A DNA stretch of 64,000 nucleotides, taken from NCBI GenBank assembly GCA_030425645.1, contig JAUHZK010000010.1:1-64000 (forward strand), given 5' to 3'. Every line of letters begins with the position of its first letter. Position 1 is the first letter of the stretch. Shown here in pieces: positions 1 to 12,787 of the stretch. The DNA is from Gammaproteobacteria bacterium. Lineage in GTDB: Bacteria > Pseudomonadota > Gammaproteobacteria > JAPPPA01. Under the pieces are notes generated by a model, which was not told the origin of the DNA, made no database searches, and saw only the letters and a list, made by a program, of their open reading frames with translations. The translations under genes were made by a program, and so were the position numbers.

Positions 1-5
1 TAACC

Positions 6-365
6 CTAAACGGCGTCATACTTATAATGATCGCGTTGCGCCAAACGTAATCGATCAACAGTATTTTTTAAAGCAGGAAAGTGTCTAGGAACCCTAGGCC
101 TTACCAAACTTGTCAGTACCCGAATGGTAATGGAAATTGTGTTTATTGCTGCGTATCGCTCAATAGGATGTTTGGCGATATGACACTGGCTGAGAAATTT
201 AAAGTAGTGCTGAATCAAAATGGCAAACTTCAATGTCCTAATTCCAATTAGACAGTTTCTTATCAAGCTGTCTGGAGTTCTAGTGGCGTACCAACCTTTC
301 CCCTGCATTAGTATCAATCCAGTTTTTACCTTTTTAGCGAACAATTGAACTCTATTGATATTCAT
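6..365 (-). CDS. Unrecognised open frame, 119 residues, doubtful
   Basis: I do not recognise this protein. It is basic, rich in Ile, Arg and His, with no clear membrane segment, signal peptide or catalytic motif. The ATG at 363-365 has no good Shine-Dalgarno sequence upstream, and the frame diverges from the lipid cassette that starts at 464. The stop is a TAG at 6-8. It may be a real small gene, a decayed remnant or chance coding. The remaining bases up to 463 are the leader of the next gene and hold only a short inverted repeat (ACCCT/AGGGT, 381-392). I see nothing else in the first 460 bases. Confidence 0.25.
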   Translation of the reverse strand: MNINRVQLFAKKVKTGLILMQGKGWYATRTPDSLIRNCLIGIRTLKFAILIQHYFKFLSQCHIAKHPIERYAAINTISITIRVLTSLVRPRVPRHFPALKNTVDRLRLAQRDHYKYDAV

Positions 366-463: not shown

Positions 464-2257
464 ATGACCTCACGGTTTGCCAAGGAAGACGCAAATTTAG
501 TCTTTCCACCACGTTTTATTTCATCGCCTGCTGATAAAGAAAACTTAGATGTTTGGGGTTTTACAGATTCAGGGTTTGAAGTCATGCCAGATGGTAACGT
601 CCACATCAAAGGTGAACGCTACGCGGCAGGCGGTGACGTTTTAGATAAGCTTTTGCCCTGGGTAAGGGATGTAATGGAAGTAGATATTCGCGGCGATTTG
701 CAAAATCCGCCAAATTACCCTCCAACCATTCCAGACCCTATAAAAAACCCTTCGCTTATAAAAGCATTAACAAAGTTTCTGAGCTCAGAACAGCTCTGTA
801 GCGATTCAGAAGTTCGCCTGCGCCATGGGCACGGCCATACCCAAGAAGATATGTATAGCATCAAGTATGGGGAAGTTAAACGGATTCCAGACTTAGTGGT
901 ATATCCAGATAACGAGGAAGATGTGGCGGCTATTGTGAAAGCCGTTGGTGAAAATGATGCTTGCTTGATCCCTTACGGTGGAGGCACTAACGTAACCGCG
1001 GCGTTGCAATGCCCAGAAGACGAGAAACGCTGCATCGTGTCAGTAGATATGAAGGGCCTTAATCGCATCCATTGGATAGACACCGACAACCACATGGCCT
1101 GTATTGAGGCCGGCGCCGTTGGCAGGAATATCTTTTCCCAGCTTAAAGAATATGGTTTTACCATTGGTCACGAACCCGACAGTGTCGAATTTTCAACCTT
1201 AGGCGGTTGGGTGGCGACGAATGCCAGCGGTATGAAGAAAAATCGTTACGGCAATATTGAAGATATTGTTTTAGATTTTAATGTGGTGACTGCAGACGGC
1301 ATCATCGAACGGCATGACCTAAACCCACGCGAATCAATCGGCTCAGACCCACGTACTTGGTTGTTTGGCTCTGAGGGCAATTTTGGCATTGTGACCAGCG
1401 TCGTTGTAAAACTATTTCCGTTGCCGGAATCTGAAGTGCATGGCTCTGTGTTGTTTCCAGATTTTGACGCGGGCTACCGGTTTATGAAAGAGATCACGCG
1501 TGCTGGCGTTATCCCGGCCAGTGTGCGCCTTGTTGATAATTTGCAGTTCCAGCTTAGCCAAGCCTTAAAGCCTACAAAAACCGGATTACCCGCCCTAAAA
1601 AGCCAAGCTGAAAAGCTTTTGGTAACTAAAGCTTTAGGCTTCAATCCACAAAAAATGTGTGCTTGTACGTTGGTTTTTGAGGGCAGCAGATCAGAAACAG
1701 AAGCGCAGCAAAAGTCACTTTACCAAATAGCGAAAAAACACGGCGGCATGAAGGCCGGTGCAGAGAACGGTAAGCGTGGATATCAATTAACGTTTGCGAT
1801 TGCCTATATCCGCGACTTCATTATGAACCATTATCTTATAGCTGAATCGTTCGAAACCTCGGTTCCTTGGAGCAAATTACCTAACTTGGTAGCGAGCGTT
1901 AAACAGCGCTTACATGATGAGTGCGCAGCGCGCGGTATTCCAGGCAAACCTTTTGTTACTGCTCGCATCACACAAGTCTACCCAACAGGCGCGGCGGTAT
2001 ATTTTTACTTTGCGTTTTATTACAAAGGTATAGAAAACCCCTCAGCGCTTTATGCGGAAATTGAGCACGCCGCCCGCGAGGAAATCTTGTCCTGTGGCGG
2101 ATCGTTGTCGCATCACCATGGAATTGGCAAATTACGCGAATCTTTTTTGCCGCAAATATTGTCACCCACTGCATTACAGTGGAAACGAAAGTTCAAAGAC
2201 ACAATAGATCCTAAGCACGTATTTGCCGTAGGTAATCAGGCATTGCGAGATCAATAA
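464..2257 (+). CDS. Alkyldihydroxyacetonephosphate synthase-like FAD enzyme
   Basis: This is a 597-residue protein of the VAO/PCMH flavoprotein fold and closely resembles animal AGPS. That enzyme replaces the acyl chain of acyl-DHAP by a fatty alcohol and so forms the ether bond of ether lipids. Visible features are the FAD pyrophosphate loop PYGGGTNV (about residue 170), the long conserved stretch beginning GHEPDSVEFSTLGGW (about 235), the Tyr-rich YFYFAFYY region and, near the C terminus, SHHHGIGKLR, which holds the catalytic histidines of AGPS. Length matches the AGPS core without a peroxisomal leader. A TTG at 452 is in frame, but GGGAG at 454-458 sits five bases before ATG 464, so I use 464. 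The stop overlaps the next start by one base, so it is co-translated with an acyltransferase of the same pathway. Other VAO-family oxidases are less likely. Substrate use in this organism is inferred. Confidence 0.85.
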   Translation: MTSRFAKEDANLVFPPRFISSPADKENLDVWGFTDSGFEVMPDGNVHIKGERYAAGGDVLDKLLPWVRDVMEVDIRGDLQNPPNYPPTIPDPIKNPSLIKALTKFLSSEQLCSDSEVRLRHGHGHTQEDMYSIKYGEVKRIPDLVVYPDNEEDVAAIVKAVGENDACLIPYGGGTNVTAALQCPEDEKRCIVSVDMKGLNRIHWIDTDNHMACIEAGAVGRNIFSQLKEYGFTIGHEPDSVEFSTLGGWVATNASGMKKNRYGNIEDIVLDFNVVTADGIIERHDLNPRESIGSDPRTWLFGSEGNFGIVTSVVVKLFPLPESEVHGSVLFPDFDAGYRFMKEITRAGVIPASVRLVDNLQFQLSQALKPTKTGLPALKSQAEKLLVTKALGFNPQKMCACTLVFEGSRSETEAQQKSLYQIAKKHGGMKAGAENGKRGYQLTFAIAYIRDFIMNHYLIAESFETSVPWSKLPNLVASVKQRLHDECAARGIPGKPFVTARITQVYPTGAAVYFYFAFYYKGIENPSALYAEIEHAAREEILSCGGSLSHHHGIGKLRESFLPQILSPTALQWKRKFKDTIDPKHVFAVGNQALRDQ

Positions 2258-3699
2258 TGTTCGCAAAAAGCCAAACAATATTGATCTCGCAAGGAGAGGC
2301 TTGTATCGCCGGCGCACAGAGCCAAGAACAGTCGGCAGATTTAGCTTGGGTGCTTAAGCAATCAGGTACAAATCCTGCAGTCAAACTGATGGCTTATTCT
2401 CTGCGGAAAATTTTTCGTGGTTCGTTAGATGGATTAACTGTAGACGTTGCTTCTTTCAAGCAGGCGCTTGCCGCGGCGCCGCGAGATGTGCCGCGTGTGC
2501 TTATACCGATCCATCGCAGCTATTTTGATTTCTTAGCCGCTGGGTATTTGCTTTTCGCGCGGCAAGATCTGGATATTCCGCTACCGCATATCGCGGCGGC
2601 CGAAGAGTTCGGGCAAGTGCCTTTCATTGGTCCGCTGTTGGCTCGGTGCGGGGCCTTTTTTATTAGGCGTGGTCAGGGCAAAGAAGACGTTGAGTTAACC
2701 AGCCAGATTGAAGATTTAGTAAGAAAGCGCGAGACCTTCGAGTTTTTTATCGAAGGCACACGCAGCCGGTCACGTCAGTTTCTAGCACCAAAACGTGGTT
2801 TGCTGCGTTGTTTGCAAGGAACCGGCGAGCGGTTTGCATTATTTCCTATTGCCATTACGTACGACAGGGTTGCTGACGAACAAAGTTTTGTAACCGAGCT
2901 AAGCGGCCAAGCAAAACCCAAAATGACATTGGGCAAATTGTTTTCTTGGTATCGACGGATGCGCCGGGGAGAAGTGAATTTGGGCCGAATGCATATTAGC
3001 TGTGCGCCACCGATTATCTTGGCACCAGATTCGGATATTTACTCACTGGCCCACAGTGTTAACATGGCTTTGCAAAAACATACTGCTACCACCGATTATC
3101 ACCTGCAAGTGTTTTGTAATCATCACGCAAATTTAGGCATTAGTGTTGAATGGTTGGCACGAAACATTAGTCTCCGGGGCGGTAAACTGTTGAGCAGTAG
3201 TCTCGACGCTAATCTTGAAAGCAATGATGTCGATGCGATTATTGAGCGTAGCTTTCAATATCAGTGGTTGCATTTGTTTGTAGATGAAGCAGTACAGCGT
3301 TGGCCTAGTAACAAGGCTTTAAGTGATTATGCGTCGCGTGTCAGATATTTCCAGCCTCCGAGTATTGCAAGCTCAGCTTCACAAGATCCCCTTTTACAGT
3401 CGTTATTGACTTGTCTCTTTGTGCCAGTAGCAAACAATTATGCGCTAACGGCGTTAACCTTGGCCGCCATGCCATCAGAGCAGCGCTTTACGAAAAACGA
3501 GCTTATACAAAGCGCGCAGGTGCTGGCTACCAAAATGGCCATCATCGCCGATGTGCCTGTAATCGAAAACGCGATTAGCGCCTTGCTGGATAATCAAATG
3601 TTAAACAAAACCCTTAATCAGCAGCTGCAAAGAAACGCCAAAGAATCAGAGCTGAAACATTATGCCGAAGCATGCCAAATTGCGATTGACGATAAATAG
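2257..3699 (+). CDS. DHAP/glycerol-3-phosphate O-acyltransferase (GNPAT/PlsB type)
   Basis: This is a 480-residue acyltransferase of the PlsB/GNPAT family. The four acyltransferase blocks are visible in order: HRSYFD (H-X4-D, residues 86-91), GAFFIRR (132-138), FFIEGTRSRS (163-172) and FPIAITYDR (196-204). The EGTRSRS form and the downstream helical region are more like animal DHAP acyltransferase than like Escherichia coli PlsB, which is about 800 residues long. It would acylate DHAP (or glycerol 3-phosphate) at sn-1, making the substrate of the AGPS-like enzyme. The ATG overlaps the preceding TAA by one base (TAATG), which implies translational coupling. No transmembrane helices are obvious, so it is probably membrane-associated. 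DHAP over G3P specificity is inferred from the neighbour. Confidence 0.85.
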   Translation: MFAKSQTILISQGEACIAGAQSQEQSADLAWVLKQSGTNPAVKLMAYSLRKIFRGSLDGLTVDVASFKQALAAAPRDVPRVLIPIHRSYFDFLAAGYLLFARQDLDIPLPHIAAAEEFGQVPFIGPLLARCGAFFIRRGQGKEDVELTSQIEDLVRKRETFEFFIEGTRSRSRQFLAPKRGLLRCLQGTGERFALFPIAITYDRVADEQSFVTELSGQAKPKMTLGKLFSWYRRMRRGEVNLGRMHISCAPPIILAPDSDIYSLAHSVNMALQKHTATTDYHLQVFCNHHANLGISVEWLARNISLRGGKLLSSSLDANLESNDVDAIIERSFQYQWLHLFVDEAVQRWPSNKALSDYASRVRYFQPPSIASSASQDPLLQSLLTCLFVPVANNYALTALTLAAMPSEQRFTKNELIQSAQVLATKMAIIADVPVIENAISALLDNQMLNKTLNQQLQRNAKESELKHYAEACQIAIDDK

Positions 3700-3751
3700 C
3701 AACTCGTCACTAACGGATCATTAAACCTAAACACCCTACACTCGATAATAA

Positions 3752-4780
3752 ATGAAAACAGTACTTGTAACCGGCGGCAGTGGTTTTGTTGGCCGACATT
3801 TAATTGATGGCTTAGAAGCCGACCCTAGCGTTGACCAAATTGTGGTGTTGATACGTAACCCAGTAGCCTGGTCTGATTTGCCTTGGGCCAAACATTATAA
3901 GAAGGTAAAGCTATTAGAGGGCGGGCTGCATGACTTGACCCAGTGGGAGTCAAGCCCACTTATTAGGAAACTTAATGGTGTCTTTCATTTGGCCGCAATG
4001 GTCGCCCACAATCGTCGAGAACGCGAGGCTGTTTTTAGAACCAATGTTGATGGCAGTATTAGCATGGCCAAGCTTGCACAACGCAAAGCTTGCCGCATGG
4101 TGTACGTTTCAACGTCCGGCACAGTGGGGTGTTTCAAAGATGCCAATAAGAAAGCCGACGAGCATGCTAAATATGTGCACGATACTGTAGGCCGCTGGCC
4201 TTACTACGCCTCCAAAATTAAGGCAGAACAGCAACTACTTGAGATGTCTAAAAATGGCTTGGATTTGGTGATTATACGCCCGCCAATTATGTTGGGCCCT
4301 GGTGATCACCGATATCGTTCTACAGGGTTACTTCTTAAGTTTCTTAATCGAAAGCTCCCGATGGTTATTCGTGGGGGGTTCCCGATGGTAGATGTACGCG
4401 ATGCAGCCGCAGCAATTCAGAAAGCCATGAATTTGGCTGCACCCCAAAATATCTATCACTTACCGGGTGAGCAACCGAGTATTGATGAGCTATTTTCGAT
4501 GTTAGAACAGATTTCCGGCGTGCCTGCTCCCACTTTGCATTTGCCAGAGAAAGTAGTGCTGGCGATCGCCCGCTTTGACGAATGGCTTGGGATGAAGTTG
4601 CGCGGCGAGCCACTGGCTCTGGTTCCAGACCCAGTAGTGATTGAGATGGGTACCTCTTATTGGGGATTAAGCAGCCTATTTGCAGCCGAAGACTTAGATT
4701 TTAAACCGCGTAGTGCCAGAACAACCTTGATTGATACTGTGGCATGGCTGCGAGAACATCCGCCCTCCGAAGACCACTAG
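3752..4780 (+). CDS. Extended SDR NAD(P)-dependent reductase/epimerase
   Basis: This is a 342-residue extended short-chain dehydrogenase with the Rossmann motif VTGGSGFVG (residues 6-14) and the catalytic Y151-x-x-x-K155 (YYASK). The family includes 3-beta-hydroxysteroid dehydrogenase, dihydroflavonol reductase and HpnA-like proteins, so the substrate cannot be read from sequence. It follows the acyltransferase by 52 bases on the same strand. By position it could be the keto-reductase that turns alkyl-DHAP into alkyl-glycerol-3-phosphate, or a reductase that supplies fatty alcohol; both are inferences. The ATG has no strong ribosome-binding site. Confidence 0.75.
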   Translation: MKTVLVTGGSGFVGRHLIDGLEADPSVDQIVVLIRNPVAWSDLPWAKHYKKVKLLEGGLHDLTQWESSPLIRKLNGVFHLAAMVAHNRREREAVFRTNVDGSISMAKLAQRKACRMVYVSTSGTVGCFKDANKKADEHAKYVHDTVGRWPYYASKIKAEQQLLEMSKNGLDLVIIRPPIMLGPGDHRYRSTGLLLKFLNRKLPMVIRGGFPMVDVRDAAAAIQKAMNLAAPQNIYHLPGEQPSIDELFSMLEQISGVPAPTLHLPEKVVLAIARFDEWLGMKLRGEPLALVPDPVVIEMGTSYWGLSSLFAAEDLDFKPRSARTTLIDTVAWLREHPPSEDH

Positions 4781-4782
4781 CC

Positions 4783-4860
4783 TAGATGCAAGTCCACTTA
4801 CTAAACAGCACTTTGTTAGTGGACAAGAAATAGCAGGCGTCAGCGGACTTTCTGCATCTA
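4783..4860. terminator. Nested inverted repeats between convergent genes
   Basis: An outer repeat pairs TAGATGCAAGTCC (4783-4795) with GGACT-TTC-TGCATCTA (4845-4860), a 13-base-pair stem with a three-base bulge. It encloses an inner hairpin GTCCACT (4792-4798) / AGTGGAC (4818-4824), which competes for the same bases. The element fills the 77 bases between the SDR stop and the P460 stop, and its right arm includes the P460 stop codon. No T-run follows, so a role as a bidirectional terminator or mRNA 3'-end stabiliser is inferred from position. Confidence 0.4.
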
Positions 4861-5370
4861 ATAGTCAGAACCCGCTTGAGTATCAAAATATTTGCTGTAG
4901 TGGAATATGTAGTCCGTATCAACGAGTGGCACATGACAACCACGGCATGACTCGTAATCAACACTTAAAGCATTGCCGCTTGCGTCAAAAGCACTATATG
5001 CCCAGTCACCGGTCTTGATGGTCGCACTCTGACCGTTTCCCTGATCTTTAGACATCACAAATACTTTGGCCAAGGCCGCTTTGACTATTCCGCCATCCCC
5101 ATTTTTCTCCGCGTTATAAATTTCCATCACGAATTTTGTGCCATTCGCAAAAGCCTTCCCTGCAACCGTTTCAGCTCCCGCGTTGTTGATGTAAATATCA
5201 CGAATGTGGCCACTGCTTTTTTCAATGCCAGAAACAAATACTGGCCAGCTTTTGTAATCACTCGGTAACGGAATTTCCCCATCATTGTAGCTAGTGCTTA
5301 CCGCGTCGTTACTACTACAGCCGGAAATTATTCCCATTCCAAGCAACGCTGTGATAATGATAGTGCGCAT
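4858..5370 (-). CDS. Cytochrome P460 family haem lipoprotein
   Basis: This is a 170-residue exported haem protein. The N terminus is a lipoprotein signal ending in a lipobox (IISGC), so the mature protein should be anchored by its Cys to the outer or inner membrane facing the periplasm. A single c-type haem motif CRGCH lies about 25 residues from the C terminus, as in the cytochrome P460/cytochrome c'-beta family. Members bind NO or oxidise hydroxylamine; which activity applies here cannot be told from the sequence. The start ATG at 5368-5370 has GGAGAG about five bases upstream, and I prefer it to an in-frame start 18 codons earlier that would spoil the signal peptide. The 233 bases upstream hold no gene I can see. 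Confidence 0.8.
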   Translation of the reverse strand: MRTIIITALLGMGIISGCSSNDAVSTSYNDGEIPLPSDYKSWPVFVSGIEKSSGHIRDIYINNAGAETVAGKAFANGTKFVMEIYNAEKNGDGGIVKAALAKVFVMSKDQGNGQSATIKTGDWAYSAFDASGNALSVDYESCRGCHVPLVDTDYIFHYSKYFDTQAGSDY

Positions 5371-5603
5371 ATTAACTCTCCACCCTAGTTTTACCGATGT
5401 AGTGACCAATCTGTATGTCGCCAAATCAGACTGATCATTTTTTGGAATAAACCTACCGATACCTTACAACATAACATGTGACATATTAATGAATATCCGA
5501 CACGCCACTAGCACCTGCGAAACTATTCCCAGAAAAAACCAGAAGAGCAGCTAGGAACCAGAATTTAATACGGTGAGGCATGTGGACTAGGCCGTTAGCT
5601 ACA

Positions 5604-6404
5604 TTAAGACTTTGCAATCAGTGGCTGAAGGTTAGCGCCAAACCAGCTGCCCATAATTTTGATTCCATCCATACCAGGCAGCTGACCAATTTTCTGATCC
5701 ACTTCCTCTATTAATTCATCTTTATAATCATCGCCGAATAAACCAGAGAAAAGTCGGGCAACTTCTTCGTTTGTCTTTACACCTGCCCCAACTGGACTCC
5801 AAAAACGCTCAAGCATAAAACGTACAAGTTTGCGATGACTTGGGTTCTCTTCTAGTCGCTTCTTAGCATTGTTGTAGTACCAAGAAAAATGCACCCGCTC
5901 TTGCTTCATGATTCTTTTGCAGATTTCATCTAGAACAGGATTGCTGGTGGTATCACGAATACGTTGATAACCAGAATGTGTTGTAAATTCCTGAACCGCA
6001 CCCCACGTCATATATAAGGTAACGAAGCGCTCATTCAGTAGACGAGAAACTTTACTGGTCAACCAAGCTAGAAACTTCTCTTTGAAGGTTGCTCTACGCC
6101 GGACTTCGGCAATACGATTCGGCTCAAGGCGAGTGCCACAAACCTCCAGCACTTTGGACAATGCTTCGCCATGGAAGTACTCCTCGTAGTTCCATGCAGA
6201 TAAAAAACCGATAACTTCAGGATCGTCCACAGCGGTGGTGTGAAGGATGTCCCGCATATACATAATTGTTTGCCCTTCGATATCGGTAAAGTAGGTAAGA
6301 ACAAACTCCTCCTCGTTCGTCAGCCCGGCGTTAGCTGCGACATCCCAGTCAATACCACCTAAATCGAGTTTGCTAGAGATTTCGAGTACGCGTTGAGTTT
6401 TCAT
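5604..6404 (-). CDS. Ferritin-like di-iron protein, acyl-desaturase-like
   Basis: This is a 266-residue helical protein with the two E...ExxH halves of a ferritin-superfamily di-iron site: E43 in DIEGQ, E75 and H78 in EEYFH, E139 in QEFTT, and E169 and H172 in QERVH. Spacing fits soluble acyl-ACP desaturase (DesA/FA_desaturase_2) relatives rather than ferritins. It would use O2 and an electron donor to desaturate or hydroxylate an acyl chain in the cytoplasm. ATG 6404 has AGGTG six bases before it and is preferred to a GTG three codons earlier. It stands alone, with 228 bases of unassigned DNA on its upstream side. A link to the ether-lipid cassette on the opposite strand is only positional. 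Confidence 0.7.
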   Translation of the reverse strand: MKTQRVLEISSKLDLGGIDWDVAANAGLTNEEEFVLTYFTDIEGQTIMYMRDILHTTAVDDPEVIGFLSAWNYEEYFHGEALSKVLEVCGTRLEPNRIAEVRRRATFKEKFLAWLTSKVSRLLNERFVTLYMTWGAVQEFTTHSGYQRIRDTTSNPVLDEICKRIMKQERVHFSWYYNNAKKRLEENPSHRKLVRFMLERFWSPVGAGVKTNEEVARLFSGLFGDDYKDELIEEVDQKIGQLPGMDGIKIMGSWFGANLQPLIAKS

Positions 6405-6558
6405 TTGATTCACCTAGTTGGATTGAATGGTGTAATCAAACCATGCCCCAGCATGGCCAACAAACCATTTTTGAATATCAAGACTGGGACATAGTAAATA
6501 CTAACTAGTTTCGGACCGTCGCCAAAAAGATAACAGTAAGAAGGCCAAACCAAATCAG

Positions 6559-6632: not shown

Positions 6633-9600
6633 CTAGGTAATCACCATTAACCAAGTCATCACCCAACGAATAGCCCCAGAGCACCGGGTGATTGTCTGCC
6701 CGGTATCTCCAATAATTGAGAAGCGTCCGTAGTGCTCTATAAAAGCCTCTGAATTAGAAGCAACCTTTTTACGCGGCGGCATCTGGTTTTCCAAATACGG
6801 TTTAACAAAATCTGTTTCTGGCAACGCAGCCCAAAGCTCAAGTTGTTCTTCATCTAGACGAACTCGAGCCAGTTTACTTTGTGCTTGCATCTTCCATGTC
6901 GTTAGCAACCAACTAAGTTGCTCGGGATTAGCTTGTCGCAAGGCTTCTAGATAATCACAAAACAAAGCCGCTGCGACCGTTGGCGAGCGAGCCGGCAGTG
7001 GTTTAGGCACCAATACGCCATCGCATTCCACCAGTGAGTGCCGAGGCACATCACTGCCCTTCTTGGCGGTTTTCAATTTTGAAAGGGCAATTAGTTCTTC
7101 TCGTATCTGTTCTAGGTTCTCACCAGTTTCGTTTGGCACATGTCCCGTTAAGAGAGCCTGCAAATGCTCAAAACGCTCGAAGTAAATTTCTCGTGAGGCT
7201 CCCTCAAGTAACTCACCCGCAGCAGCCTTCTGGACCTTAAAACCAGAAAAGCCATGATCCAAAGTTTCCGTATCCGAGTCGACTAGCTCCTTCAATACAT
7301 TATGAATGTGCGCTTGTTGATCCTTCGTTTCAAAATCAGCAGTGTTCTCTCGCCACACCCTCTGCCGTCGGCGCATCGTTGCAGGGCTTTTGATGCGATA
7401 TTCAAATGCACGATCAAAGTCGATCGCAGGCAGGGTGTGTAGGTATGCCAACTGAGCAATACCAACAGTGTGGATGTAATAGCGCAATGTAGTGGTTGGG
7501 TGCGAATGACCCAACATAGCAGAAATGGCTTGAACTCCGTGCCCACTAAACCCCTCGTTCCCTAATAAGACGCCTAAACGCCCTCTCGGAATTAATAATT
7601 GCTGCAACCAAGGGATGTGGTCCTGTATCGAATTAAAGTCTACAGCGGGCTGCAAAACCGATAACAGTAGCTGACTAGCAACGGTGTGTCGCAATATATG
7701 TAAGTGAGAGTTTGGATCTCCAGTAACTGCCTGAATCAGCTTATTGAGTGGATCAAAAAACTGGCTTCCATCAACCCACCGGTCAGGTGAGACTAATTGG
7801 TTAGGACGGTTAGTGTCATTTTCGCTTAACCATTTAGTGAAATTCTTGTCCGCATATCCAACCGGAAGATTGCGACGGGAGCTGTTCGTTTTTAGCGTAT
7901 GGTCATCGTAAGGCTGTACGCGCATCAGGTTTTTTTGCACGTCTAGCAACCGCAAGTTAATGGCCTCGGTACGCCGAAGACCATAAGTGCCGACCATGCG
8001 CATCACACCGACTGCAGATGCCCTTGCATCCTCAGATCCAATGCCGCTCAACGCAGACCCGAGCGCTTCAATTACCTGCCGTTGGTGTGCCGGCAAAACA
8101 AGCGTGCTCAGCACCCCCTGCAATTGGCCGGGCTCAATATCCCCTACTTTTATTCCGAGCTGTGACAGCTTGTTAACGGTGCCGCGCTGACGCAGACATT
8201 TCCTAAGCAGCCCAAATGCCTCGGCCGTGCTGACATTTGAGTGATGATCCACGAACCCATCATGGATTTGGCTAAGCAAGGACTCGTCAATAACAAAACC
8301 ACGGTTTGGCTCAGAGCAAAAGCCAAACAAACTGTAACCAACCACTTCAATCAACTTTTTATAGCGCTGCTTCTCCGCTTCGGGTAATTTGTTTTTAACA
8401 AGCTTAAGTTCTTTTTGGTGTAACCACGTCGCGAAATACCCGAGCAGTCGGTTCCGATAACCTTTCTCGGTCAGCTTGTTTATTCTTTTGATTCGCGTAC
8501 TTGGGTCAGGCGAGCGAATAGCAGCCACTTCGCGAACAGGGTTCGCGTTTCTAGGCAAATCTTGTGATGGCAGTTCAGAGGGTTCTGGCCTGAATGATTG
8601 CTCCAAACTATCATTTTCCACGGAGGCGACACGCGACTCTTGTGCTACTGGCAGCCCTAACAAGTGCCTTAATTCGTTCTCGGGTAAATCGTGTGTCTCA
8701 AACTCACCCGCAGCATAGGCGGCTAGCAACGGCGCGCCATTAAGCAAATGATATTGCTGAGATGCCTGCAAAAGCGTCGTTAGCAACTTTGTTCCAGCCA
8801 CGTCAGCCAATTCTTTGAGGTAGGCGGCTAACAACCGCTGACATTTAGCTCGGCGCTGTTGCGGATTTAATTCGACAAGAGGTTGTAGCAAGTCACTAAT
8901 TCGCTCTCGCTCAGCCGCCAGATAAATCGCACTGTAGGGCTCCAGAAAAATGAGTCGGTCCATCTTCGCCCCATTACGCCGACAACGAATCATCGCTGGG
9001 ACATATCGCAGACCTGCCGTGGCTCTTATTCCATGCTGGAGGAAGCCTTCGATAAATTGGTTGACCACCGGCCAGGTACTCAGTCCTTGTCGCCACATCA
9101 ATATCATAAAGAAACGAGCGAGCTGATGTTTATCACTATCCGGCGGTGGCAAGTGCGAAAGTTCTTTATTAAAGGCCGGCAATACATGCCGCTCTAAATA
9201 GGCCAAATTAACGATGGCATTACGCTTAATAAGCCAATCTTTTTGAAACTGCCTTCTAGGCTTATTGACGTATATCGGTACTTTCCACTCGCGTCGAGCG
9301 TAGTCGCAGCAGTCCTTAGCAATTTGGATTTCCGTTTTAATGTCTTTGCCGCATGCCTTAGCAACCTTCAATATCAAACTCATCACAGCGGCAGGGACTT
9401 TCTCAGTCGTGCCGCAAACCGCCTTATAAAGTTCTTCGGCATGCTCTTGAAAGGCTTCTTCAATTTGCTGCTTTTTAAGTACTGCCTTTGAGTCTTCCTT
9501 AACAGGCGATTTCTCGAGCGTCGAGGAGACAGGCACGAGCGTCAAAGGAATAGGCCAGGCGATTGCCGGCTTAGCAATCTTAGGATGAGTAATCACCCAA

Positions 9601-12110
9601 AAACCTAGGCGCTTTTCTAGCTGTTGCTGTCCTTCAAGCCACAAGCCATTGGCTTCTCGAGCACAATAGTTTGATGTAACGCGAAACGGATGGCGTCCTA
9701 ATACCCAATGACCTTGCATGGCGTTTTGAATTCGCCCACCAAGATTCGTCAAACTCGCCTGAATATACTTACGAGCCCAATTACCTGGCATAGGAATCAA
9801 CGCTTCAGATTCATAAAGCCACTTAGGTCGAAAATCGACGACTTGGCTCTGCGCATTGATGAACTGAAACCGGAGCACACCGTTCGTCAATGAATCAGCG
9901 AGCGGCTGAAATTGAGGTACTGTTAACGACAGATGCCACACATAAGCCACATACGCTTTCAGTTGCGCTTGAACACCCAGAGTAAGTGGTACTGGCCGTT
10001 CAGCACTGTCATCACCTCGGTGTTTATCACTGATTAATGCTGTACCACCAATGATCGCTACCGGCGAAGGATTGACCCGGCCACGCGAACCAGTTGCAAG
10101 GTTTAGCCACAACAGCGTATACATCGTCATGAGGTTAAACACATGGACATCTGCCCCCTGCTCAAGACGGACGGCTAGGCGCCTTTGGACCTGCTGTATC
10201 TGTTCACGCAAAGCCCTTTCATCAATGGCCTCTGGGGTGCCTAAGCACTGTTCACCGAACAAGTCATCAGACATGCCATCTTTTTGGGCTACAAGGCTTC
10301 GTGGACTAACCCCGATAAGATGTGCAACTGCATTAGCCCAGGCATAACAAACCGTTGACTCAGCAAAAGAGGCGTAATGAATAATATTGTTGTAGTTAAG
10401 ACCATTACGATCAGTAATAACCTTAACGATGCCTAAATCTCCCTTATTCAAGGATAAAAGCTCAAACAACAACGCATCACGCACAGCGGCGCTTGAAAAG
10501 CCATACCCGGTTGGCTGCCGCCGAACCAAATTTTCAGCTGCTTTCCGATAAGTTGAAGAGCGAAGATGACCGTCACCTAGCCACTTCGCGTCACCCATCA
10601 ATTCCTGTAAGAACTTCGGCAACTTAATCGTCACCATCTCACCGTGCGGAGAGAGTATGCGAGACCCTTCTAATTTGGATCTAGCCTTTTTTGTTAGGTT
10701 TGGCGCCCCGGCCTTAACCCGTAATAGCCCTTTAGCGATATCAACTTGAATAGTCGGCTCGTTCTTCCAACGATAAGCGACTGGCTGGATTTCAGTCACT
10801 CTCAATTCTTCAAAACTACGGCCTGTTATTAAGCTCAGACCGACTAATACCTTCCCCGCGCGTTTAGCGACGGATGCTTTGCGCTGTGATTCACTCAGCT
10901 TTTCGGAAACATTTCTGTCCTGGTGAGTTAATACATTTTTTATCAACTCTCTAACTGCAACAATGCTTAGACGGTGGGCCGACCACGGGAGCTGTGCATT
11001 TTGATATTCAACTGCATACTGAGCGCCTTTTGCCGCATACCAACCCTGAAGCAAGTCATCGGTGTCTTCATATACCAATCGGTAAGTCGGGTCCTTAGGC
11101 GGGAGGTCTTCATCATCGACATCATCAATGGCCTCTTTGGGTAGCTTCAATTTTGCTGGCTTCGGCTCGGGCGTTACATCAACAATTAACGTCTTGCCTG
11201 CATCAGTACCGACTACAAGGGAGTCCCCATAGCGGCTCGCTTTGGAGCCGAAGAGCTTTTTCTTTTCTTGCTTTTGCCTAGAAACATGATTTGGAGACGA
11301 TCGACCTGAAGTACCTGGGACCCACATAAGTCGCCATAAATACCTCATCGGACTCGCCACTGAGTCGCGAACCGTAACTAGTCGCTCTCTTAATTCGTCA
11401 ATATCTGTTTCGGGGGCAAACTGCTTGATGAAACCAAGCGTCTGCGAGATCCCGTTCCGCCCGCGAACATGTTCAGCCAGTTTAGCGAGTCTCTTGCCAG
11501 AGTCTGCAGTCATTCCTAAATCAAGCTGTGCGAGTCGCTCTAGATCTTTGGACTTTGACGAATCCGCAAGCTTCCTGACATAAAGAGCTGCAGACGCAAT
11601 ACGGCCACTGTATTTATTACTGGATAACTTAGGCCTACCCTCTGCCGATAAGATATAGCTTTCGTAACGGTCAGGACTAAGAGCTTCAGCATGGTATCTA
11701 AGCGCTATCCATAGGAACCACGCCAATACTTTTTCAAACTCTGCCTGTTGCTCACCGTCATATCGATTAAGCAACATCAGATCACAAATCGGGCTATCCC
11801 CAGTAAACGGGGTCAAGGGGCACGGAGAGTCTTTTGGAAGATGGGATTGCTTGAAGTGATCTTCCGCGAAATCCAACTGGGAAATACGGCGCAGAATATC
11901 CAGTCTTGGACTCAGGTTTTCTATGTTGTGGTCCAGAAGATTTGGGTACTGCTGTTCAAACTCAAAGATGCGCCGCGTGCATGTCACTATGGCTTCTAAA
12001 TTGTGGTGCGCTGAGATCAACCGCAGTGCATCGATTAGTTCAGCCTGTGTTACCACACCCATGCCCTGCGAGTTGAGCATGTCGAGTAGCTGCTTAAGGC
12101 GCGCATTCAC
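6633..12110 (-). CDS. Giant multi-module tyrosine recombinase-like protein, 1825 residues
   Basis: The C-terminal third (about residues 1330-1580) is a tyrosine recombinase catalytic domain with every key residue visible: R1379 in YGLRR, K1407 in TLKTNSSRR, H1471 and R1474 in HILRHTV, H1535 in LGHSH, and nucleophile Y1545 in TTTLRYYIHT. Two earlier regions look like degenerate versions of the same fold. Region A (about 415-590) has TGRSFEEL with R431 and an AAVRD box at 541-545 in place of HxxR. Region B (about 660-815) has ATGSRGRVN with R676, K696, and H807 and R810 in GRHPFR, but no following GH...Y. Ordinary recombinases are 300-450 residues, so this is four to five times too long. The GTG start overlaps the upstream stop (GTGA), so it is coupled to the 226-residue protein. 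No cargo gene lies between. Target site and function (integration, excision or defence-island mobility) are inferred. Confidence 0.75.
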   Translation of the reverse strand: MNARLKQLLDMLNSQGMGVVTQAELIDALRLISAHHNLEAIVTCTRRIFEFEQQYPNLLDHNIENLSPRLDILRRISQLDFAEDHFKQSHLPKDSPCPLTPFTGDSPICDLMLLNRYDGEQQAEFEKVLAWFLWIALRYHAEALSPDRYESYILSAEGRPKLSSNKYSGRIASAALYVRKLADSSKSKDLERLAQLDLGMTADSGKRLAKLAEHVRGRNGISQTLGFIKQFAPETDIDELRERLVTVRDSVASPMRYLWRLMWVPGTSGRSSPNHVSRQKQEKKKLFGSKASRYGDSLVVGTDAGKTLIVDVTPEPKPAKLKLPKEAIDDVDDEDLPPKDPTYRLVYEDTDDLLQGWYAAKGAQYAVEYQNAQLPWSAHRLSIVAVRELIKNVLTHQDRNVSEKLSESQRKASVAKRAGKVLVGLSLITGRSFEELRVTEIQPVAYRWKNEPTIQVDIAKGLLRVKAGAPNLTKKARSKLEGSRILSPHGEMVTIKLPKFLQELMGDAKWLGDGHLRSSTYRKAAENLVRRQPTGYGFSSAAVRDALLFELLSLNKGDLGIVKVITDRNGLNYNNIIHYASFAESTVCYAWANAVAHLIGVSPRSLVAQKDGMSDDLFGEQCLGTPEAIDERALREQIQQVQRRLAVRLEQGADVHVFNLMTMYTLLWLNLATGSRGRVNPSPVAIIGGTALISDKHRGDDSAERPVPLTLGVQAQLKAYVAYVWHLSLTVPQFQPLADSLTNGVLRFQFINAQSQVVDFRPKWLYESEALIPMPGNWARKYIQASLTNLGGRIQNAMQGHWVLGRHPFRVTSNYCAREANGLWLEGQQQLEKRLGFWVITHPKIAKPAIAWPIPLTLVPVSSTLEKSPVKEDSKAVLKKQQIEEAFQEHAEELYKAVCGTTEKVPAAVMSLILKVAKACGKDIKTEIQIAKDCCDYARREWKVPIYVNKPRRQFQKDWLIKRNAIVNLAYLERHVLPAFNKELSHLPPPDSDKHQLARFFMILMWRQGLSTWPVVNQFIEGFLQHGIRATAGLRYVPAMIRCRRNGAKMDRLIFLEPYSAIYLAAERERISDLLQPLVELNPQQRRAKCQRLLAAYLKELADVAGTKLLTTLLQASQQYHLLNGAPLLAAYAAGEFETHDLPENELRHLLGLPVAQESRVASVENDSLEQSFRPEPSELPSQDLPRNANPVREVAAIRSPDPSTRIKRINKLTEKGYRNRLLGYFATWLHQKELKLVKNKLPEAEKQRYKKLIEVVGYSLFGFCSEPNRGFVIDESLLSQIHDGFVDHHSNVSTAEAFGLLRKCLRQRGTVNKLSQLGIKVGDIEPGQLQGVLSTLVLPAHQRQVIEALGSALSGIGSEDARASAVGVMRMVGTYGLRRTEAINLRLLDVQKNLMRVQPYDDHTLKTNSSRRNLPVGYADKNFTKWLSENDTNRPNQLVSPDRWVDGSQFFDPLNKLIQAVTGDPNSHLHILRHTVASQLLLSVLQPAVDFNSIQDHIPWLQQLLIPRGRLGVLLGNEGFSGHGVQAISAMLGHSHPTTTLRYYIHTVGIAQLAYLHTLPAIDFDRAFEYRIKSPATMRRRQRVWRENTADFETKDQQAHIHNVLKELVDSDTETLDHGFSGFKVQKAAAGELLEGASREIYFERFEHLQALLTGHVPNETGENLEQIREELIALSKLKTAKKGSDVPRHSLVECDGVLVPKPLPARSPTVAAALFCDYLEALRQANPEQLSWLLTTWKMQAQSKLARVRLDEEQLELWAALPETDFVKPYLENQMPPRKKVASNSEAFIEHYGRFSIIGDTGQTITRCSGAIRWVMTWLMVIT

Positions 12111-12787
12111 AACGTTATAACGCCCATGTTCTTACGAATCGCACTGGCAGCGGACTTACTGTAACCAGTAAGTAACGCTGCCTCTGCTGCGGTGTCGGAC
12201 AACCTACAAATCAGCTCTAGGTTATTTGAAATCAAGTCCCCTAATACTGCCAAGACCATATCGGAAACTTGAGGAAGCGATAGCTGTCTAGGTAAAGGAT
12301 GCTTAATTACTGAGAATCTCGCCTTTGTCGCCGGTAATCGGTAACCAGCGATAGCGGCAATTAACTGTCCGTTGTATACGGTATGTTTGCCACTGTTGGA
12401 ATGAAATCCTACGACGGGAGATGCCCATTCCAACAAAACCGGTAAACGGGCTTTAGAAACACCAAGCAAGAATTGTTCGGCCGCTTGGTTGACCGAAACA
12501 TTTAGAACATCCCTGCGTGCGTATTTTTCAAGCTGGTACAGCTGCAGTTCACGGCGCCTACTCTCAAATGCGTAGTCCGCTACACGCCATCTATAACTAA
12601 ATCGATCATTGGGCCGCGTAACATTTAGATACCTAGCGAACGCCACTTCATACGCCGCGACAATAAGCGCTTTGTAATGCGCCTTGCCGAGCCTATTAAT
12701 GCAACCCGTTTCGGAAATCAGACACGCGGCATACCCCAAATAGAACTGCCACGATCGTTGCGGATAAATTGGAACATCTAGTTTCAA
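12107..12787 (-). CDS. Unknown 226-residue partner of the giant recombinase
   Basis: I do not recognise this family. The protein is basic (many Arg and Lys) with no signal peptide or membrane helix. Its C-terminal 50 residues (from about SDTAAEAALLTGYSKSAASA) look like a helix-turn-helix, which suggests DNA binding. It is translated just before the giant recombinase with a four-base overlap, so the two probably work together, for example as an accessory DNA-binding or directionality factor; this is inference. The ATG at 12787 begins about 290 bases downstream of the initiator-tRNA promoter on the same strand, and that promoter may drive it. Confidence 0.6.
   Translation of the reverse strand: MKLDVPIYPQRSWQFYLGYAACLISETGCINRLGKAHYKALIVAAYEVAFARYLNVTRPNDRFSYRWRVADYAFESRRRELQLYQLEKYARRDVLNVSVNQAAEQFLLGVSKARLPVLLEWASPVVGFHSNSGKHTVYNGQLIAAIAGYRLPATKARFSVIKHPLPRQLSLPQVSDMVLAVLGDLISNNLELICRLSDTAAEAALLTGYSKSAASAIRKNMGVITL

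Follow-up and report, generated by a model that had tools for sequence, protein, structure and literature searches.

A FAR-less form of a known bacterial AGPS operon type, predicted to serve alkyl ether-lipid synthesis, in a gammaproteobacterium

Gene content and setting of the cassette

Three genes on one strand, referred to here as the cassette, lie at the beginning of contig C4 in a 2.75 Mb genome (G000) that is 99.5% complete. The window is the whole stretch of DNA that was analysed, 64,000 nucleotides from the start of this contig. The genes are assigned, in order, to an AGPS, a GNPAT-like acyltransferase and an extended SDR (Table 1). The initial annotation had described a one-base overlap of the first two genes followed by an SDR gene, and this is what we found: three intact open reading frames, with the TAATG junction in place. 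The AGPS gene has an ATG start with GGGAG upstream, the overlap likely couples translation of the AGPS and GNPAT-like genes, and the SDR gene starts 52 bp past the end of the GNPAT-like gene. A scan for promoters and terminators gave no more matches than shuffled sequences.

Table 1. Features of the cassette and of the contig start (positions in the window)
Feature	Position	Strand	Remarks
AGPS gene	464..2257	+	597 aa; FAD_binding_4 + FAD-oxidase_C
GPAT/DHAPAT-type (GNPAT-like) acyltransferase gene	2257..3699	+	480 aa; stand-alone
Extended SDR gene (NAD-dependent epimerase/dehydratase family, MXAN_1674-like)	3752..4780	+	342 aa
TAATG junction, AGPS stop / GNPAT-like start	2255..2259	+	base 2257 common to both
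Exact repeat at contig start	1..106		sequence match to three other genome sites

Because contig C4 begins 463 bp before the AGPS gene, a further upstream gene, for example one for an alcohol maker, may have been lost in the assembly gap. Window positions 1-226 are probably the remnant of a mobile element at an assembly break. The repeat at the contig start recurs at C11:21-126, at C8:328043-328148 and at the far end of C4, two of these three sites being contig ends, and bases 135-226 share 74% identity with sequence close to where contig C12 begins.

On the other side, the next gene after the cassette is a cytochrome P460-like gene on the opposite strand (4858-5424). It is followed by the gene of a diiron desaturase-like protein (5604-6413, - strand), which has a weak PF03405 match and is without a solved relative; homologues that are 31-35% identical are encoded 3-4 kb away from AGPS in the actinobacterial loci L099, L101 and L103, which may be coincidence. 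Further along is a tyrosine-recombinase-like giant of 1825 aa (6633-12787, - strand), whose start is overlapped by a 226-aa partner and which no NCBIfam model fits apart from a weak XerC match.

The earlier view of the host as a gammaproteobacterium fits the data. A 16S rRNA search of the assembly found none, and the class assignment thus goes by the similarity of CarB to that of E. coli, by the kinship label of the genome and by a gene order that we take, from ORF sizes, to be tpiA-glmM-folP-ftsH-...-carB-carA-dapB, in which only CarB was confirmed by comparison.

Families of the three encoded proteins

Judged by family and active site, the FAD protein is a true AGPS. Both of its domains were recovered by Pfam domain search, and its residues 29-589 (561 residues) match guinea-pig AGPS (4bby) with 42% identity at E 7.7e-157, followed by Dictyostelium AGPS (2uuu, E 7e-89); the next family is that of the glycolate/lactate oxidases (E 2e-27). 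Because the guinea-pig match is so strong and the same gene order occurs in unrelated genomes, the cassette is not a product of chance. As the active-site set of the guinea-pig enzyme we took R419, R515, Y578 and H615-H617, chosen with the help of the mutants among the solved entries, in which positions 419 (4bc7) and 578 (4bca) are altered. These residues correspond to R355, R450, Y513 and H550-H552 of the cassette protein, and all are invariant across four AGPSs (alignment A1). A glycolate/lactate-type oxidase was considered and rejected, since the NCBIfam GlcD model scores 155.6 bits against a cut-off of 567.9 and AGPS fits far better. The AGPS-like identity first proposed for this gene has thus held up, with all checked active-site residues kept and no lactate- or vanillyl-type oxidase in question.

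The same holds for its placement on an AGPS tree of 88 rows, whose exact root is unsure owing to long outgroup branches: the cassette protein falls inside the AGPS clade, at a distance from the AGPS-like paralogue that the same genome encodes. It stands as a lone branch within a clade of 31 rows (SH-aLRT 98), which is made up of Acidobacteriota, Myxococcota, Nitrospira, Sericytochromatia, Gemmatimonadota and other groups and includes myxobacterial MXAN-type sequences. The animal enzyme stands apart on a long branch of its own, and the paralogue, encoded on contig C9, lies outside the clade with Dictyostelium and other distant forms.

Motifs and predicted fold indicate that the second protein is of the GPAT/DHAPAT class and not a PlsC, with DHAP as its putative acceptor. 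It matches PF01553 (Acyltransferase) and, weakly, GPAT_C, and its blocks I-IV read HRSYFDF, AFFIRR, FFIEGTRSR and PIAITYDR. Block I is HRSHxDY in PlsB and GPAT1, in contrast to the cassette protein, and HRSYxDF in animal GNPAT. In searches of sets that contained neither a GNPAT structure nor a GNPAT sequence, the predicted structure (pLDDT 88.7) matched the fold of human GPAT1 with Z 23.6 over 443 of 480 residues, and PlsC with only 12.1. On a tree, the protein belongs to an AGPS-linked GNPAT-like clade (98/96) that includes neither GPAT1 nor the genome's own PlsB. Motifs, full-length fold and clade therefore bear out the GNPAT-like label that the gene had been given. The best NCBIfam match is PlsB, far under its cut-off; a separate PlsB of 848 aa is encoded in the same genome, so that the cassette acyltransferase is not needed for bulk lipid.

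The third protein matches the Pfam families Epimerase, 3Beta_HSD and NAD_binding_4. Its nearest solved structure is gox2253 (3wj7), and both TGxxGxxG and YxSK are present in each of the 11 sequences aligned. The SDR family is broad and many epimerases match. Two specific identities were rejected: HpnA, at 165.9 bits against a cut-off of 367.65, and a classical SDR of the PexRAP/DHRS7B type, as the protein has no adh_short match and is of the extended type. The initial label of an SDR reductase stands, as the protein is a reductase-fold SDR tied to its neighbours by gene order and fusion; it is epimerase/3beta-HSD-like and not of the animal PexRAP type. Gene order and the Nitrospira fusion described below make it a probable alkyl-DHAP reductase.

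Relatives in other lineages and rarity in the class

The cluster is not a new type. The M. xanthus operon MXAN_1676-1675-1674 encodes an AGPS, a FAR1-GNPAT fusion and a NAD-dependent epimerase (PMC9131029), and AGPSs of the cassette kind are widespread in bacteria. Both gene sets encode these three functions on one strand in identical order, and the cassette AGPS sits in a clade with myxobacterial sequences; MXAN_1675, however, has an N-terminal FAR1-like domain, whereas the window acyltransferase has none and no FAR1-type gene was found in the genome. From these comparisons, the cassette is best described as a new FAR-less form of a known bacterial operon type, very rare in its class and presumably used for ether-lipid production. 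In M. xanthus, deletion of MXAN_1676 slightly lowered ether lipids, the operon being a minor route and ElbD the major one (PMC9131029). The elb system, too, relies on FAR- and acyltransferase-type domains to make alkyl ether lipids, and its ElbE is of the NAD-dependent epimerase family, but ElbD is a multidomain FAR, ACS, ACP and AGPAT-like enzyme and not an AGPS.

The order AGPS, GNPAT-like gene, extended SDR recurs in about a dozen other lineages. A GNPAT-like gene follows AGPS in 16 loci from other phyla, and a homologue of the cassette SDR comes next in 11 of the 15 with further downstream sequence (L043 only partial); such homologues occur in none of the loci that lack a GNPAT-like gene. 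In most relatives FAR is fused to GNPAT, and the cassette acyltransferase is homologous to the C-terminal half of these fusions, the FAR domain being missing. A Nitrospira sp. MAG (L032:7866-11378) encodes, directly after AGPS, a single 1170-aa protein with FAR, GNPAT-like and extended SDR parts, which places nearly the whole alkyl-G3P pathway within two proteins. The FAR-GNPAT and FAR-GNPAT-SDR fusions imply that all these activities belong to one pathway. GNPAT without a fused FAR is found in the window, in L046 (Binataceae) and in L054 (Myxococcales), and, if L043 is counted as a fusion on account of its spacing, the fusion state amounts to three changes along the AGPS tree; the resolution of the GNPAT tree is too poor to locate the loss of FAR. 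At its N-terminus, over some 18 residues, the cassette acyltransferase aligns weakly with the post-FAR linker of the fusions, which fits the loss of FAR from a fusion protein. A search of viral contigs and plasmids gave no close relative.

Among 369 genomes sampled from the class, full AGPS (E<=1e-90) was found in 3 and relatives of the cassette GNPAT-like protein (E<=1e-40) in 1, the window's own genome; the genus is represented by one further genome, 88% complete, which has neither. The cluster had been called notable for this class, and it is indeed very rare by its GNPAT-like gene, but AGPS itself is rare rather than unique, because other gammaproteobacteria in the sample have AGPS operons with other partners.

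G361 (L144:2106-6570, L024:3288-4130) has, one after the other, an 810-aa FAR-LPLAT fusion, an AGPS and a classical SDR, which is a complete set of another construction within the class. In G070 (L142:283-5270), an 822-aa protein joins an LPLAT to AGPS, and an HMGR/FcrA homologue lies close by, with the gene of a DegT-type aminotransferase in between. G004 (L143:2591-6975) has a row of genes for an HMGR/FcrA homologue, an LPLAT, an AGPS-like protein of 31% identity and an SDR; the HMGR/FcrA homologues of G070 and G004 may be either FcrA or ordinary HMGR. All three resemble the cassette in combining an AGPS or AGPS-like protein with an acyltransferase, two of them with an SDR as well. In contrast to the cassette, their acyltransferases are PlsC-type LPLATs, joined to FAR in G361 and to AGPS in G070, their SDRs are classical, and FAR or FcrA-type HMGR homologues are present. 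The AGPSs of G361 and G070 fall in another clade than that of the cassette, and the G004 protein lies even further away. The comparison shows that the four activities (fatty-alcohol maker, acyltransferase, AGPS and reductase) have come together on several occasions, with members of different enzyme families, a point relevant to the origin of the eukaryotic pathway.

A single gammaproteobacterial AGPS clade was rejected (p-AU 7e-6), which makes horizontal transfer likely. The GC content of the cassette is below that of the housekeeping part (46-49% vs 51-54%), a weak sign by itself because the neighbouring sugar gene cluster also has stretches of low GC. Taken together, the 106-bp repeat, the recombinase-like neighbour, the lower GC and the rejected clade suggest that the cassette was likely acquired by horizontal transfer.

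Proposed pathway, alcohol supply and alternatives

On the sequence evidence we consider it quite probable that the three genes form an operon for the core synthesis of 1-O-alkyl glycerolipids by the DHAP route, as a horizontally acquired, FAR-less relative of MXAN_1676-1674. The GNPAT-like enzyme would acylate dihydroxyacetone phosphate from fatty acyl-CoA or ACP, and AGPS, via its FAD, would exchange the acyl chain for a long-chain fatty alcohol to give 1-O-alkyl-DHAP. The SDR, to judge from its position and from the fusion, would reduce the ketone to 1-O-alkyl-glycerol-3-phosphate, and sn-2 acylation by another of the cell's PF01553 acyltransferases would then lead to alkyl-acyl phospholipids. 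The scheme resembles the animal FAR1/GNPAT/AGPS/PexRAP (DHRS7B) route in its AGPS with conserved active site, in an acyltransferase of the same GPAT/DHAPAT family and in SDR-type ketone reduction; it differs in that the SDR is extended and not classical, and in having no FAR1 and no peroxisome. If the proposal is true, animal-type alkyl ether lipid chemistry is present in Gammaproteobacteria and has spread as a transferable operon. Without FAR, the cassette is smaller than the myxobacterial operon, which shows which parts are separable, and it lends itself well to expression in E. coli as a set.

The least certain step is the supply of fatty alcohol. No FAR1-type reductase was found in the genome, a search for the FAR domain included, and FcrA, an HMGR-like reductase (PMC11948995), and full-length AcrB were not found in it either, which is a point against the proposal. 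What the genome does contain is a match to the C-terminal half of AcrB: a 269-aa SDR at C16:45378-46148 reaches 320 bits against the C-terminal reductase half of AcrB/PRK07201, under the full-length cut-off, and almost the same, 315 bits, to PRK05866, with both cut-offs unmet. This half of AcrB resembles Acinetobacter Acr1, an aldehyde-forming acyl-CoA reductase. The Acr1-like SDR is a candidate alcohol source, through a separate two-step route, or the alcohol may come from outside the cell. Lipid_desat (PF10520, CarF/PEDS1) had no match in this genome, and likewise none in the control genomes. That plasmalogens are made too, by an aerobic DHAP route without CarF in which the vinyl ether is introduced by the desaturase-like protein or another enzyme, seems to us highly improbable.

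The main competitor to the ether-lipid operon is that the cassette is decayed or idle, FAR having been lost after transfer, so that there is no alcohol donor and little or no ether lipid. The absence of FAR from both acyltransferase and genome favours this, as do the linker-like N-terminus, which looks truncated, the repeat at the cassette border and the lowered GC. However, all three frames are intact, with catalytic motifs and coupling kept, and the FAR-less GNPATs of L046 and L054, representing three separate changes on the AGPS tree with that of the window, suggest that the state is a workable one; we therefore regard decay as unlikely.

It is much less probable again that the FAD protein and its partners do something else in glycerol-phosphate metabolism. 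Pseudomonas has a PA3026-type AGPS-like protein encoded with GlpD-like and FGGY-kinase genes (PMC8151288). This PA3026-PA3024 group (GliR regulon) offers a gammaproteobacterial AGPS-like FAD protein, and the window genome has the same layout on contig C9, where the AGPS-like paralogue (C9:151645-152991) is encoded in one operon together with a GlpD-like protein and an FGGY kinase (L149:8327-13160). But this paralogue is distant and is accompanied by no acyltransferase or SDR; it is 32% identical to the cassette AGPS, which is closer to the guinea-pig enzyme, it has SHQHG where AGPS reads SHHHG, and the two are far apart on the tree. Equally improbable is a chance meeting of a second glycerol-3-phosphate acyltransferase (a PlsB duplicate) with a sugar epimerase, for although PlsB is the best NCBIfam match and the SDR scores to HpnA and many epimerases, the acyltransferase belongs to the AGPS-linked clade, its block I is not that of PlsB, and the gene order is conserved across phyla and fused in Nitrospira.
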